Below are positions 1 through 9,529 of a stretch of DNA of 37,146 nucleotides, piece after piece; position 1 is the first letter of the stretch, and each line of letters opens with the position of its first letter. A program made the position numbers and the translations under genes. The notes beneath the pieces were generated by a model, which did no database searches, was not told the origin of the DNA, and saw only the letters and a list, made by a program, of their open reading frames with translations. Source of the stretch: Sulfuricurvum sp. (lineage in GTDB: Bacteria > Campylobacterota > Campylobacteria > Campylobacterales > Sulfurimonadaceae); NCBI GenBank assembly GCA_011391735.1, contig JAABPY010000037.1:1-37146 (forward strand), written 5' to 3'.

Positions 1-777
1 ATTGTAGGGATTCATCCCTACCTCAATGCCCAAAAAACATTTCTTGCCTACGAACCGATTGTTCATTATCTTGAAGAAAATGTAAAAGGGGCTCATTTTC
101 GTCTTGAAACCTCTTTGAATTATGCCGATTATGAGCGCAAACTTTATAGCGGTCATTTCGACATAGCACTCCCTAACCCTTACCAAACGTTAAAAGCACT
201 CGAGCATGGGTATCGCATTGTCGCGAAGGTGAAACCCGACAGCGAATTTCGGGGAATTATTGTTGCACGTAAAGAGAGTCATATCCGTTTTGTCGAACAG
301 TTGCGCGCAGAAGCGATCAGTTTTCCGGCATCCACTGCATTGGCAGCAACGATGATGCCCAAATGGTTTTTATATGAGAGAGGGTTAAATGTAGACAGAG
401 ATTCATATCCTCGCTATGTTGGTTCACAGTACTCCTCGATTATGAATGCCTATAGTGGTGATACCATTGCGGCAGCAACATGGCCAAGCCCTTGGAGAAC
501 ATGGCAACAAGAAAATCCTGATAAAGCGGCACAGATGGAGGTGATTTGGAAGACCCCTATCTTAGTTAACAACGGTTTGGTTGTCCGCTCAAATCTAAAT
601 GCCTCAACCGTTCACAAGATCGTCGAGTCTCTTTGTGCCCTTGATAGAGATGCCAATGGGAAAAATCTTCTTAAAAGTACTGGATTTGAAGGATTTGAGA
701 GAGCATCGGATAGGACATACGCCCCCGTAAAAGAGTTCTTACAGCGTTATGAAAAAACATTAGGATTGCCAAAATGA
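1..777 (+). CDS. PhnD-like phosphate/phosphonate-type periplasmic solute-binding protein (5' truncated by window edge)
   Basis: Frame 1 is open from base 1 (IVGIHPYLNAQKTFLAYEPIVHYLEENVKGAHFRLETSLNYADYERKLYSGHFDIALPNPYQTLKALE...), so the ATG at 115 is internal. The PhnD/SsuA-like fold is suggested by FDIALPNPYQ, followed by a later domain (VIWKTPILVNNGLVVRSNL) and C-terminal YAPVKEFLQRYEKTLGL. Confidence 0.75.
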   Translation: MVGIHPYLNAQKTFLAYEPIVHYLEENVKGAHFRLETSLNYADYERKLYSGHFDIALPNPYQTLKALEHGYRIVAKVKPDSEFRGIIVARKESHIRFVEQLRAEAISFPASTALAATMMPKWFLYERGLNVDRDSYPRYVGSQYSSIMNAYSGDTIAAATWPSPWRTWQQENPDKAAQMEVIWKTPILVNNGLVVRSNLNASTVHKIVESLCALDRDANGKNLLKSTGFEGFERASDRTYAPVKEFLQRYEKTLGLPK

Positions 778-2864
778 AGAGAGTGAAACTATTTTTTATG
801 TCGCTTAAATGGCAGCTTTTTATCGGTGTAATCGTTTTGCATGCGGTTCTCATGGGGATATTTGTATACGATCTTATCCAAAGAGAACGACAGTTTATCG
901 ACAATCAGGCACTTGCAAAAGCTCAGGAGCTAAGCAGATTGATCGCCTCAAATGCCTCTTTTGGAATTGTCAATAACGATATTGTTGCATTGGATGAGTT
1001 GGTCAGTCAGATGAAAAATGTTGAGGATATTGATTTGATTTTTCTTATGGATAAGAATTATCGTATCCGCTCCTCCAACAATTCAGCATATTTCAACCAA
1101 ATATTTACCGATCGATGGAGTTTAGAAATTCAAAAAGAGTTGTACCAAAGCGGTTCTACGATGGTTCAAAAGCGGCATGATGGTATTATTGATACGAATC
1201 TCCCCATCCATCTTGGGACGAAAACAGTCGGATATATTCGGATGCTTTCCACGACGTATAGGGCTGATCATCAAATTGAAGTACTTCGCAATAAGGGGTT
1301 GTTCTATCTTTTTCTTGCCATTGTCAGTGGTGGTTTTGTTGCATGGATGATTGTCCGTCATCTAACATCTCGATTAACCCTTCTCTCACAAGCAGCATTG
1401 GAAGTGGCGAAGCACAATTATGAGATTATTCTCCCCCCTTTTCAGGGTGAAGATGAAATCGCACAAATGGGACGAGCCTTTAGTGCTATGATTGAATCGA
1501 TCCATAATCAGGTGCAGGCATTATCATTTGAAATTTCTCAAAGAAAAGAGACGCAAGAGTTATTGGACTATAAAGCACATCATGATGAGTTGACCCATCT
1601 CTCTAATCGTACGTTATTCTTAGATCGATTGGAACATGCGATTAAAAAAGCAAAACGGCAAGAGGGTATGCTGGCTGTTTTGTTTATCGATCTTGATCGC
1701 TTTAAAGAGATTAACGATTCACTAGGGCATGAAACTGGGGATAGGGTTCTTATTGAGGTTGCTAAGCGATTAAGTGAAAATTTACGGGAGATCGATACGA
1801 TTGCCCGTTTGGGCGGGGATGAGTTTACGTTGATTGTCGAGGATATTGAAGGAAATGATAAAGTCAATGAGATTGCCTCCAGAGTATTGACACTGTTGCA
1901 GCAGCCTATTCAAATAGATCAACATCAGCTCTATGTAACTAGCAGTATCGGTATTAGTTTCTATCCTCTTGATGGAGCGGATGCTCAGAATCTTTTGCGA
2001 AACGCTGATTCTGCAATGTATAAAGCTAAAATAGAGGGGCGTAACAGCTATCAGTATTATACGCAAGAGTTGACTGCACGTGCATACGAAAGGGTTTTAC
2101 TGGAGTCAAATTTGCGTCGGGCGATTGAAAATCAAGAATTTATTGTCTATTATCAGCCGCAAATGGATGGTGTGAGTGGAAAAATGATCGGTATGGAGGC
2201 GTTGGTTCGATGGCAACACCCGCAAATGGGGCTTATCTCCCCTGCTACTTTTATCCCAATTGCCGAAGAGACGGGTTTGATTGTCCCCATTGATCAGTTG
2301 GTGATGAAAAGTGCACTAAAACAGATTGTACAATGGCGTAATGAGGGGTTAAACCCTGGAATTCTATCGTTGAATTTAGCGATGAAACAGTTGTGGCAGG
2401 AGAGTTTTATTGAGACGTTGCAATGGATGTTGGAAGAGAGTGGTTGCAAGCCCGAGTGGATTGAGTTGGAAGTGACAGAGGGGGAGGTAATGAAAAACCC
2501 CGAAATGGCAATTGGTATTTTAAAACGATTACATGATATTGGGGTAGCACTGGCAATTGATGACTTCGGTACGGGGTATTCATCACTATCGTATCTCAAA
2601 CGTCTTCCGCTAGATCTATTAAAAATCGATCAATCCTTCGTTCGAGGTATCCCTGATAATAATGAAGATATAGCGATTGTGCGAGCTATTATTGCATTGG
2701 CAAAAAGTATGGGGATGCGTGTAATTGCTGAGGGGGTAGAGAGCATTGAACAGAAAAACTTTTTGGTCGAAAACGGATGTCGTGCTATTCAAGGATATTT
2801 TTACAGTCGTCCTATCCCATCTGTTGAAATGGGCGATTGGATGCGTGCAGCACTAAAGGAGTAA
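774..2864 (+). CDS. Membrane-bound GGDEF/EAL (c-di-GMP cyclase/phosphodiesterase) protein with periplasmic sensor and HAMP region
   Basis: N-terminal TM, ~140 aa periplasmic segment, second TM (GLFYLFLAIVSGGFVAWMIV), HAMP-like region, RLGGDEF with REID I-site five residues upstream, EALVRWQHP, ELEVTEGE, DDFGTGYSSL, AEGVES. ATGA overlap with the upstream gene. Confidence 0.95.
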   Translation: MKRVKLFFMSLKWQLFIGVIVLHAVLMGIFVYDLIQRERQFIDNQALAKAQELSRLIASNASFGIVNNDIVALDELVSQMKNVEDIDLIFLMDKNYRIRSSNNSAYFNQIFTDRWSLEIQKELYQSGSTMVQKRHDGIIDTNLPIHLGTKTVGYIRMLSTTYRADHQIEVLRNKGLFYLFLAIVSGGFVAWMIVRHLTSRLTLLSQAALEVAKHNYEIILPPFQGEDEIAQMGRAFSAMIESIHNQVQALSFEISQRKETQELLDYKAHHDELTHLSNRTLFLDRLEHAIKKAKRQEGMLAVLFIDLDRFKEINDSLGHETGDRVLIEVAKRLSENLREIDTIARLGGDEFTLIVEDIEGNDKVNEIASRVLTLLQQPIQIDQHQLYVTSSIGISFYPLDGADAQNLLRNADSAMYKAKIEGRNSYQYYTQELTARAYERVLLESNLRRAIENQEFIVYYQPQMDGVSGKMIGMEALVRWQHPQMGLISPATFIPIAEETGLIVPIDQLVMKSALKQIVQWRNEGLNPGILSLNLAMKQLWQESFIETLQWMLEESGCKPEWIELEVTEGEVMKNPEMAIGILKRLHDIGVALAIDDFGTGYSSLSYLKRLPLDLLKIDQSFVRGIPDNNEDIAIVRAIIALAKSMGMRVIAEGVESIEQKNFLVENGCRAIQGYFYSRPIPSVEMGDWMRAALKE

Positions 2865-2865
2865 G

Positions 2866-3219
2866 ATGAGATGGATCGTAATCATGATTGGATTGACAAT
2901 CGTAGGATGGGGTTGTACGGGTGATTGTATGACCTGTCACCCCGCATTACTCAAAACAATTGATACCGATTTGCGACATAAGCCTATGGTGACGTGTATC
3001 AAATGTCACAGTGCCGACCCTGCTAAAATGGCAGATTGCGGAAGTGATTGTTTTGCCTGTCACCCCATAGCAAAAATCGAGGGGGCAAGAGTAGCTGAGC
3101 ATACCGTCATACGTGAATGTCGTGACTGTCATATGAAGCTTAAAGGACGATTGGAGATTGACATACTCCCAAAAGGGCAATCGAATGGTTCAACCTTAAG
3201 GGATTTCTTGATCCCTTAA
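2866..3219 (+). CDS. Small periplasmic tetraheme c-type cytochrome
   Basis: Hydrophobic N-terminal signal and four CxxCH motifs (CMTCH, CIKCH, CFACH, CRDCH). Starts 2 nt after the GGDEF/EAL stop. Confidence 0.85.
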   Translation: MRWIVIMIGLTIVGWGCTGDCMTCHPALLKTIDTDLRHKPMVTCIKCHSADPAKMADCGSDCFACHPIAKIEGARVAEHTVIRECRDCHMKLKGRLEIDILPKGQSNGSTLRDFLIP

Positions 3220-3220
3220 G
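3195..3220. terminator. Perfect 10-bp inverted repeat spanning the overlapping stop codons of two convergent genes
   Basis: cttaagggat-ttcttg-atcccttaag. Stops of 2866..3219(+) and 3216..3740(-) both lie in the right arm. No clear U-tract on either side. Confidence 0.5.
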
Positions 3221-3740
3221 CATACATAGGTTCAAAAAGGGTGTCGAATCCATCGATAATTTTTTGCATCAATTTTTGAGCTTCATTAAGTATATTTTCA
3301 TTTATTTTGATAGGCTTAATCGCATTATCAAAGAGGTCAACAACCCCCTTTTTTGCTAAATTCTTGATGGTATCATCACTGTGTTTCAAATCTCCAATAA
3401 GTTTTGTAACATCTGAAGCAACTTTGTTGATAGGGGACGTTTGATTTTGATCTTCGAGTTCTTTCATGAATTTATCAATAAAAGGTTGGGCTTTTTTCAT
3501 AAAATCATTAATTTCTTTCTGATCTTGTTCGCTAATACCGTTAGTGTCAATATTAAATGAAAACGCTTGAAGAGAAGAGAAAGAGAAAGATTGCTCTTTT
3601 CCATCAGAGGATATTTTTTCATTAAGAGAAAGCTCATTTGAATTTTCAAAATTAAGAGAGAGGGTGTCCCCTGAGCTTGTTTTCATCTGGATGTCTAGCG
3701 TGTGTGAACGGTATGCATTAAGAGAAGCGGTAGTAGTCAT
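3216..3740 (-). CDS. Hypothetical protein (174 aa)
   Basis: Long ORF with plausible start, low-complexity Ser/Asn-rich N-terminus and helical C-terminus. No recognised family. Confidence 0.7.
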   Translation of the reverse strand: MTTTASLNAYRSHTLDIQMKTSSGDTLSLNFENSNELSLNEKISSDGKEQSFSFSSLQAFSFNIDTNGISEQDQKEINDFMKKAQPFIDKFMKELEDQNQTSPINKVASDVTKLIGDLKHSDDTIKNLAKKGVVDLFDNAIKPIKINENILNEAQKLMQKIIDGFDTLFEPMYA

Positions 3741-7171: not shown

Positions 7172-8515
7172 ATGACCTCTACTATTGCAGCCATCGCTAC
7201 GGCGCATGGCATGGGTTCGGTCGCTATTGTTCGTCTGAGTGGCAAAAATGCCCTCTCTATTGCCATTGAGCTTTCTCAAAGAGAAACATTAACTCCCCGC
7301 CATGCGACATTAACCCCCCTTTATACCAATGATAAAACTCTCATTGATGAAGCCATTGTCCTTTATTTTCAAAACCCAAAAAGTTTTACTGGGGAAGATG
7401 TCGTTGAATTTCAGTGTCACGGGGGGATGATTGTTGCCCAATTAGTGTTATCAGCAACACTTGAATTAGGTGCAAAACTAGCACAACCAGGAGAGTTTAG
7501 CAAACGGGCATTTTTAAACGGTCGGATGGATTTGACGCAAGCTGAAGCAATAGCCTCCCTTATCGAAGCACGCAGTGATGGTGCTGCTCGTATTTTGGCA
7601 CGTCAAATGAAGGGGGAGTTGCGTGGCTATGTGGAAACTATCCGTGACGCTTTGCTAGAAATTTTAGCCTATTCAGAAGTGGTGATCGATTATGCAGAAG
7701 AGGATTTGCCAGCCGATGTCGTCGATCAGATTTTTCATAAACTCGAAAACATAAAAAAAGAGCTCTCCCGTACCCTCGAATCAAGCCGTCGCCGTAGCGG
7801 TCTTATGCAAGGGTATCGCGTGGCAATCATCGGTAAACCCAATGTGGGGAAAAGTTCTCTACTAAATGCACTTCTTGATTATGAACGGGCGATAGTCAGT
7901 GAGATTGCAGGGACAACGCGTGATACCATCGAAGAGCAAGTGCGCATTGGAACCCATCTACTACGTCTTGTTGATACCGCAGGTATCCGAAACGCTCATG
8001 ATGAGATTGAGCGTATTGGGATCGAACGCTCTATCGCTGCTATTGAAAATGCCGATGTGGTGATTACCCTATTTGATTCAAGCCGTCAGATGGATGAAGA
8101 AGATCGTGTTATTATTGATTTGATTGCACAGTACCATCACCAAAAACCTTTTATTTGTATACTAAATAAATCCGATTTACCTCAATGCTTTGAAACGAAA
8201 GTGATTGAAAAATATCAGCCGATTTCGTTGAGTTGTAAGGATGAGATGCAAATTCTTATCGACGCATTAAGTGCTTTGATGGATCAGGATAACGACAGTG
8301 AAGAGATGATGCTCATATCCCAGCGTCAGATTAGTGCAACCGCCGACACGGTAAAGGCTATTGATGAAGCGTATGAACCGTTGTATGACGGCGAGTTGGA
8401 ACTCTTTTCTTTTCATATCAACCAAGCCATCCGTTCCCTCTCTTCCATCAGCCGACCGTATCAACTTGATGAGATGTTTGATAAGATGTTCGGTCAATTT
8501 TGTTTGGGGAAATAA
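7172..8515 (+). CDS. mnmE: tRNA uridine-5-carboxymethylaminomethyl(34) synthesis GTPase MnmE (TrmE)
   Basis: TIAAIATAHGMGSVAIVRLSG, GKPNVGKSSLLNALL, DTAGIR, NKSD, C-terminal FCLGK. Confidence 0.98.
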   Translation: MTSTIAAIATAHGMGSVAIVRLSGKNALSIAIELSQRETLTPRHATLTPLYTNDKTLIDEAIVLYFQNPKSFTGEDVVEFQCHGGMIVAQLVLSATLELGAKLAQPGEFSKRAFLNGRMDLTQAEAIASLIEARSDGAARILARQMKGELRGYVETIRDALLEILAYSEVVIDYAEEDLPADVVDQIFHKLENIKKELSRTLESSRRRSGLMQGYRVAIIGKPNVGKSSLLNALLDYERAIVSEIAGTTRDTIEEQVRIGTHLLRLVDTAGIRNAHDEIERIGIERSIAAIENADVVITLFDSSRQMDEEDRVIIDLIAQYHHQKPFICILNKSDLPQCFETKVIEKYQPISLSCKDEMQILIDALSALMDQDNDSEEMMLISQRQISATADTVKAIDEAYEPLYDGELELFSFHINQAIRSLSSISRPYQLDEMFDKMFGQFCLGK

Positions 8516-8904
8516 TGACGATTATTGCAATAGATTTAGGATTAAAACGAATTGGTTTGGCATTAAACGCAGGCTCTGGAATCGTTATGCCCTTACCAGC
8601 GGTTGAGCGTAAAAATCGTGATCAAGCTGCTAATGATGTTAAAAAAGTGTTAAATGAGTACGAAGCGACTACCGTTGTCATTGGTATACCGATGGGAAGC
8701 ACCACAGAAGATGAGATGCGTCGACGGGTGGCACACTTTATGAACCTTGTGGATTTCAAAGGGGAGATCGCTTATCAAGATGAGTCCTACAGCTCCCAAG
8801 AAGCTGAATCACTGATGAAAGGGGAAATCCGTTACAAGCGTGACGGACGGATTGACTCTCTCTCGGCGAAGATTATTTTGGAGCGGTATCTTAAATCGCT
8901 TTAA
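8515..8904 (+). CDS. ruvX: Holliday junction resolvase RuvX / YqgF-family
   Basis: IIAIDLGLKRIGLAL, VVIGIPMGSTTED, YQDESYSSQEAE, DSLSAKIILERYL. ATG overlaps the mnmE stop. Confidence 0.92.
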   Translation: MTIIAIDLGLKRIGLALNAGSGIVMPLPAVERKNRDQAANDVKKVLNEYEATTVVIGIPMGSTTEDEMRRRVAHFMNLVDFKGEIAYQDESYSSQEAESLMKGEIRYKRDGRIDSLSAKIILERYLKSL

Positions 8905-9529
8905 AAAACTCCGCCGCTTCTTTTTCATCATCGCTTAGAGTGGCAAATTCATCATCATTAGCTATTTTATCCTTGATGATGTCGGCACAATACTTAAACC
9001 CCAGTTTTTGCGCCACTTCCATATCGAAGAGAAATCCCAAACCGCTAAACTGATACGGCTCCTCTTGTTCAATACACAATAAAATTCCCTCACACTCCTT
9101 TTCAAAGAGATCAACAAGCTCACGATATTTAATATGAAACTCTGTCGCATGCCACCCAATGGTTTCAAGTGTTTTGTCAGAAAATTCAGCAATCCCATCC
9201 CCTGATGTATCATCGTATAAGGCGCGACGTTGATTGAAGCTGATAATGTTTTGCCACGCACCTGAAGCTTTGATAAGGATTCGATTCCCATCTTCAACAA
9301 TTCGGTACTCTTTTCCCAAAATTTCGGTGATAGGACGGGCAAGATTGGTGGAGAGAGGTGATACAGGGGGGATTGTCCCCTCATAAATGGAGATAAGATC
9401 ACCAGTAAAAGGTTCATACACAATAGTACCGTTGTAGCTGATGGCAAATTTCTTAGAAGAATTGAGGGCATGGAGTAAACTAGAGCGTTCTACAACGATA
9501 ATTTCTTTAAATAAATTAAACTTTTTCAT
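8891..9529 (-). CDS. Conserved-looking hypothetical protein (212 aa)
   Basis: Long ORF starting MKKFNLFKEI. 3' end overlaps ruvX convergently. No recognised domain. Confidence 0.75.
   Translation of the reverse strand: MKKFNLFKEIIVVERSSLLHALNSSKKFAISYNGTIVYEPFTGDLISIYEGTIPPVSPLSTNLARPITEILGKEYRIVEDGNRILIKASGAWQNIISFNQRRALYDDTSGDGIAEFSDKTLETIGWHATEFHIKYRELVDLFEKECEGILLCIEQEEPYQFSGLGFLFDMEVAQKLGFKYCADIIKDKIANDDEFATLSDDEKEAAEFFKAI

Follow-up and report, generated by a model that had tools for sequence, protein, structure and literature searches.

The DNA analysed here, hereafter the window, is a stretch of 37,146 nucleotides from Sulfuricurvum sp., which belongs to the Campylobacterales (contig JAABPY010000037.1 of assembly GCA_011391735.1). 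It represents an entire contig of its assembly, and base 1 is therefore a contig end at which the first gene is cut. The features near this end are collected in Table 1. An earlier reading of the sequence without database searches (the sequence-only reading) had pointed out the ATGA overlap of a PhnD-like gene with a GGDEF/EAL gene, a cytochrome gene with four CxxCH motifs close behind, and no permease or ATPase gene downstream of the three. Direct reading confirms the overlap and the cytochrome gene, a single base (2865) lying between the receptor stop and the cytochrome start, and the statement on the downstream region is likewise borne out. The same three-gene order is present in three genomes besides the window (G019, G022 and G040), and because of this recurrence the layout is not attributable to chance. 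A single-sequence scan of genome contigs gave only two near relatives; the named near relatives are MAGs designated 'Helicobacteraceae bacterium' and 'Campylobacterales bacterium'. Scans of the window for base composition and for promoters and terminators gave nothing above chance.

Table 1. Features at the beginning of the window and the basis of their assignment
Feature	Coordinates	Strand	Basis and remarks
PhnD-fold substrate-binding lipoprotein (gene 1)	1..777	+	Pfam PF12974, orthologs, AF2 model; 5' end cut by contig end
Receptor, TM - periplasmic single Cache - TM - HAMP - GGDEF - EAL (gene 2)	774..2864	+	Pfam, model, motifs
ATGA stop/start overlap joining genes 1 and 2	774..777	+	Direct sequence reading; kept in at least 20 of 27 loci
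Tetraheme c-type cytochrome, four CxxCH; neighbour outside the module, ancestral neighbour of clpB	2866..3219	+	Motifs, synteny
CiaI-like protein, resident of the clpB-cyt-rnpA locus, outside the module	3216..3740	-	NCBIfam CiaI, E 2e-8, far under cut-off; position conserved

The 258 residues that remain of the first gene product match the Pfam family Phosphonate-bd (PF12974) with an E value of 1.8e-47. The full-length protein in orthologs has about 302 aa (302 aa in G019 and G022) and carries a lipobox with Cys22; all 15 of the members that were aligned have this lipobox cysteine. An AF2 model of the ortholog at locus L034 (pLDDT 88) shows a complete bilobed binding protein, whose best PDB matches in Foldseek are ArrX, PhnD-type proteins and PtxB, with AioX and XAC2383 lower down. 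The protein thus has the fold and the Pfam family of the PhnD/PtxB binding proteins, and it is encoded beside a receptor and not beside a transporter, which is the arrangement of AioX and ArrX. Plasmid records contain only remote binding proteins, and the two that were inspected adjoin genes annotated as ATP-binding proteins. Searches of the open-licence literature on PhnD in combination with GGDEF gave no description of a relative of this lipoprotein family.

The receptor encoded by the second gene matches Pfam HAMP, GGDEF and EAL. Its N-terminus was modelled (pLDDT 85) as a single Cache domain flanked by two long helices, and the model resembles the sensor domains of WalK, CitA, DcuS and LuxQ in Foldseek; Pfam sCache_3_2 was matched by 10 of 13 receptor members, with E values up to 0.1. 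The motifs of both enzymatic domains are intact, namely GGDEF with an RxxD I-site (REIDTIARLGGDEF; REID..RLGGDEF), EALVRW and DDFGTG, and because these motifs are present, both synthesis and breakdown of c-di-GMP would be possible for this receptor.

In all 27 genomes having the lipoprotein gene, which belong to five families of the order, the gene directly downstream on the same strand encodes a receptor whose N-terminus is recognisably of Cache type, and the exact 4-nt overlap recurs in most of these loci (Table 1). These 27 genomes are not independent events, since the clade of the window accounts for four of them, and some copies are fragmentary or broken (G012, G113). For example, at L036:8348-10535 (G012) the lipoprotein ORF is truncated and the receptor ORF is shortened to 430 aa, representing either a decaying copy or assembly errors. 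Conversely, wherever a receptor with a close Cache domain could be tested, the lipoprotein gene lay upstream of it. The genomic neighbourhoods of the pair otherwise differ among genomes, and the receptor outputs differ too: GGDEF-EAL with or without PAS/GAF, GGDEF alone (G542), or a histidine kinase of the HisKA-HATPase type (G017, G393, G523).

The distances of the lipoprotein and of the Cache domain are correlated with each other (r=0.71, n=26, Mantel p 2e-4), a value that stems in part from a split into two subfamilies, and the correlation is still found inside the main subfamily (r=0.58, n=19). The corresponding correlations with clpB are r -0.09 for the lipoprotein and 0.06 for the Cache domain (n=11 genomes). 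Since the distances of the pair track each other and not clpB, the pair behaves as a cassette. The co-divergence argument has a limit, because the nine main-subfamily genomes that also have clpB give a weaker lipoprotein-Cache signal (r 0.36, p 0.036), with Cache-domain distances that in part go along with those of clpB (r 0.51). On the whole, the binding-protein gene adjoins the gene of a membrane-bound c-di-GMP enzyme that has a periplasmic domain, as in XAC2383-XAC2382 and NspS-MbaA, and the two genes very likely encode a co-receptor pair.

We consider it highly probable that the lipoprotein and the receptor form a two-part co-receptor which steers the c-di-GMP balance and which has spread as a cassette with exchanged outputs. 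The sequence-only reading, which had proposed a ligand-sensing c-di-GMP pair analogous to NspS-MbaA, is supported on this point, and there is no ABC transporter at the locus. In the mechanism that we propose, the PhnD-fold lipoprotein, periplasmic and membrane-anchored, would bind a small ligand, and the ligand-loaded (or empty) protein would dock on the single Cache domain of the receptor. Docking may then shift, via HAMP, the balance between c-di-GMP synthesis by GGDEF and breakdown by EAL, in a direction that could be either. For the putative physical control of the enzyme by the lipoprotein, the observations are those of co-divergence and invariable pairing; the Cache domain could also bind a ligand on its own. 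During its spread the cassette would retain its periplasmic half while its cytoplasmic output is swapped among GGDEF-EAL, GGDEF and histidine kinase, and in the window it landed between clpB and the cytochrome gene with tight spacing retained.

The nature of the ligand was examined by mapping the pocket positions of Escherichia coli PhnD on an alignment that comprised 26 of the lipoproteins, together with four PhnDs linked to ABC genes and nine relatives linked to kinases. In the lipoproteins, Tyr47 of PhnD is mostly kept and Tyr93 is replaced by Phe; Ser127-Thr128-Ser129 has become Ala-[Leu/Phe]-Ala in 26 of 26, His157 is Gln in all except two, which have His, and Asn175 is Trp in 26 of 26 (an assignment that depends on the alignment, the neighbouring Pro taking this position in a pairwise alignment). 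The Ser-Thr-Ser, His and Asn ligand residues of PhnD and PtxB are thus replaced in the lipoproteins, whereas the ABC-linked PhnDs of the same phylum, used as controls, keep all of Tyr, Tyr, Ser, Thr, Ser, His and Asn. The pocket of AioX includes Cys106, Ser161, Ser163 and His192 among others (PMC5908839). The equivalents of the latter three in the lipoproteins are Ala, Ala and Gln (His in two), and the only conserved cysteine is that of the lipobox, an equivalent of Cys106 being absent, so that the residues characteristic of AioX and ArrX are not found. Judging from these residues, binding of phosphonate, phosphate or an arsenic oxyanion in the manner of PhnD or AioX is not supported. The oxyanion/phosphonate-type ligand suggested in the sequence-only reading is therefore not supported either, and a phosphonate or arsenic oxyanion ligand taken from the family name was set aside as unsupported on the same basis.

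The replaced pocket also bears on an alternative in which the lipoprotein acts on the receptor without any small ligand, either as a YfiR-type inhibitor or as a membrane-anchored reporter of envelope stress. The conserved lipoprotein anchor and the lost PhnD pocket residues fit this possibility, and so do a weak CHASE8 match of the N-terminal part of the receptor and a match of its full sequence to the DgcN/YfiN model, which is under cut-off. However, positions around the former pocket are strongly conserved (F127, W205 and N234/N235 are invariant or nearly so), as expected of a working ligand site, and the fold is that of a complete bilobed binding protein; we regard a ligand-free action as improbable.

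Another possibility is that the PhnD-like protein serves an ABC transporter encoded elsewhere and that its place beside the receptor is incidental, since its fold and Pfam family are those of the transporter-linked PhnD and PtxB. The invariable receptor pairing argues against this, as does the fact that the lipoprotein family is separate from those PhnDs of the phylum that are linked to PhnC/PhnE and whose phosphonate pocket is preserved. The genomes themselves point the same way: no PhnE over the family cut-off was found in 12 pair-bearing genomes, where the weak matches listed stay below it, while as a positive control true PhnC-PhnD-PhnE loci were recognised in other genomes of the phylum. 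We therefore judge such a function to be very unlikely. Extension upstream of base 1, which the earlier reading had proposed as a check for ABC genes, was possible through orthologous loci. In these of G019 (L034), G022 (L035) and G040 (L040 and L041) the ClpB gene precedes the lipoprotein gene, with a spacing of only about 30 bases in L034 and L035, and no permease or ABC ATPase gene was found upstream of the lipoprotein gene. The adjacent PhnC ATPase and PhnE permease genes typical of PhnD and PtxB transporters are thus missing from these loci, which have clpB upstream and the receptor downstream, and an ABC transporter upstream of base 1 was rejected as a candidate.

The cytochrome gene is to be interpreted differently from the pair. 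Its ORF matches Cytochrome_C7 under the Pfam gathering score (23.4 vs 24.8 bits). The cytochrome is nearly universal in the genus (40 of 41 members) and occurs in 123 of 200 family members, while a close relative of the lipoprotein occurs in only eight genus genomes, and the ancestral gene order is clpB-cyt-(CiaI-like, opposite strand)-rnpA-yidD-yidC-jag-mnmE. When the immediate same-strand upstream neighbour of the cytochrome gene was listed for 63 loci, 54 of them had clpB in this place and four had the receptor (those of the window, G019, G022 and G040). Cytochrome distances follow those of clpB (r=0.91, p 2e-4) and neither those of the lipoprotein (r=-0.08) nor those of the Cache domain (r=0.00). 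Outside the window's clade, 14 pair-bearing genomes were tested for the cytochrome and 12 of these yielded no match; the sample was non-random, several of the 14 having been picked because an earlier cytochrome survey had found nothing in them. These observations show that the pair does not need the cytochrome, which is a vertically inherited resident gene outside the sensor module. On the basis of the synteny, distance and absence data, the cassette has been inserted between clpB and cyt in the window's clade, and the tight gene spacing has been kept.

Consequently, the 'added redox component' of the sequence-only reading proved to be a resident of the clpB-cyt-rnpA locus that usually occurs without the pair, and the survey of three-gene co-conservation, which that reading had set beforehand as the test able to refute it, came out against a three-part system. 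A module in which the tetraheme cytochrome reports the redox state to the sensor pair, or is regulated together with it, is already largely refuted by this evidence and can hardly be expected to hold, even though the three-gene order with near-zero spacing is shared by four related genomes and the pair of G045 (L128) also adjoins the cytochrome gene at the same locus, in reverse orientation. The G045 pair is probably an independent insertion because its lipoprotein is not specifically close to that of the window (its distance to the G019 lipoprotein is 0.73, against 0.66 for that of G056). We considered this pair as a second sign of linkage and set it aside as weak, since by a rough estimate there is a chance of about 10% that two of about 22 insertions share one of about 2000 junctions. 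Within L128:4768-9463 of this genome, an extra lipoprotein-like ORF of 174 aa (8488-9012) overlaps the start of the lipoprotein ORF. Other GGDEF/EAL-receptor-like genes are located just downstream of the cytochrome gene in L113, L116, L118, L123, L225, L227 and L232.

The two-gene plan of the proposed co-receptor is already known from XAC2383-XAC2382, NspS-MbaA and, with a kinase, AioX-AioS. In the first of these, XAC2383 is reportedly a periplasmic protein of PhnD fold whose partner is a c-di-GMP enzyme. Its structures 5ub3 and 5ub7 are among the Foldseek matches of the lipoprotein model, but in sequence it is only a remote relative (E 2.5e-4 to the lipoprotein profile), and the binding protein of the window differs in being a lipoprotein and in the overlap of its gene with that of the receptor. 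Judging from the title of the Xanthomonas citri study (Teixeira et al. 2018, doi 10.1074/jbc.RA118.003475, cited in PMC10380989), XAC2382 is a diguanylate cyclase, whereas the receptor of the window is GGDEF-EAL. NspS-MbaA resembles the pair of the window in that a binding protein is encoded beside a bifunctional GGDEF-EAL receptor with no transporter. NspS differs from the lipoprotein of the window in being a polyamine-type binding protein outside the PhnD family. The Vibrio cholerae system serves polyamine sensing (PMC8967002), and AioX-AioS, ArxX and ArrX serve arsenic sensing (PMC5908839). In the latter group a PhnD-fold binding protein likewise signals to a membrane receptor and not to a transporter, and ArrX is the best Foldseek match of the lipoprotein model; unlike in the window, however, the output of AioX-AioS is a histidine kinase, and Cys106, Ser161, Ser163 and mostly His192 of AioX are not kept in the lipoproteins. 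LuxP-LuxQ is comparable because a binding protein acts on a Cache/PAS-type periplasmic domain, and the Foldseek matches of the receptor include the LuxQ domain. LuxP belongs to another binding-protein class, and the output of LuxQ is a kinase.

What differs from these systems in the lipoprotein/Cache-receptor family is the lipoprotein anchor, the near-constant gene overlap, the altered pocket and the swapped outputs. We lean slightly towards the view that this is a widespread, horizontally moving sensor cassette of Campylobacterota, with an overlapping pair, a retained periplasmic half, swapped outputs (c-di-GMP synthesis/breakdown or histidine kinase) and a class of ligand that would be new to the PhnD fold. 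The external signals known to act on c-di-GMP networks are few, and according to a review in 2022, only SBP_bac_3 of the binding-protein clan had been studied in these networks (PMC8846402). In the present family the pair is cleanly free of a transporter and has an altered PhnD pocket; purified protein would allow a search for its ligand, and reporter chimeras are straightforward to build because outputs have been swapped naturally. The locus also advises caution in taking operon neighbours as partners, because the cytochrome seems coupled in one genome and the relatives show otherwise.

Two related arrangements can be mentioned in addition. In the genome of the window (G000:C128, L236:1-3273), a 611-aa ORF (L236:1438-3273) located directly behind a GGDEF-EAL ORF fuses a PhnD-like domain to GGDEF, and this fusion is a one-piece counterpart of the lipoprotein/receptor pair with the same logic. 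A second class of PhnD-like proteins, with a signal peptide, no lipobox and the motif FGVVPQQSP, is encoded directly before large receptors, several of which are then followed by a response regulator (L042, L043, L134, L141, L142, L143, L183, L184 and L186); this class has F-A and H at the Thr-Ser and His positions of PhnD.
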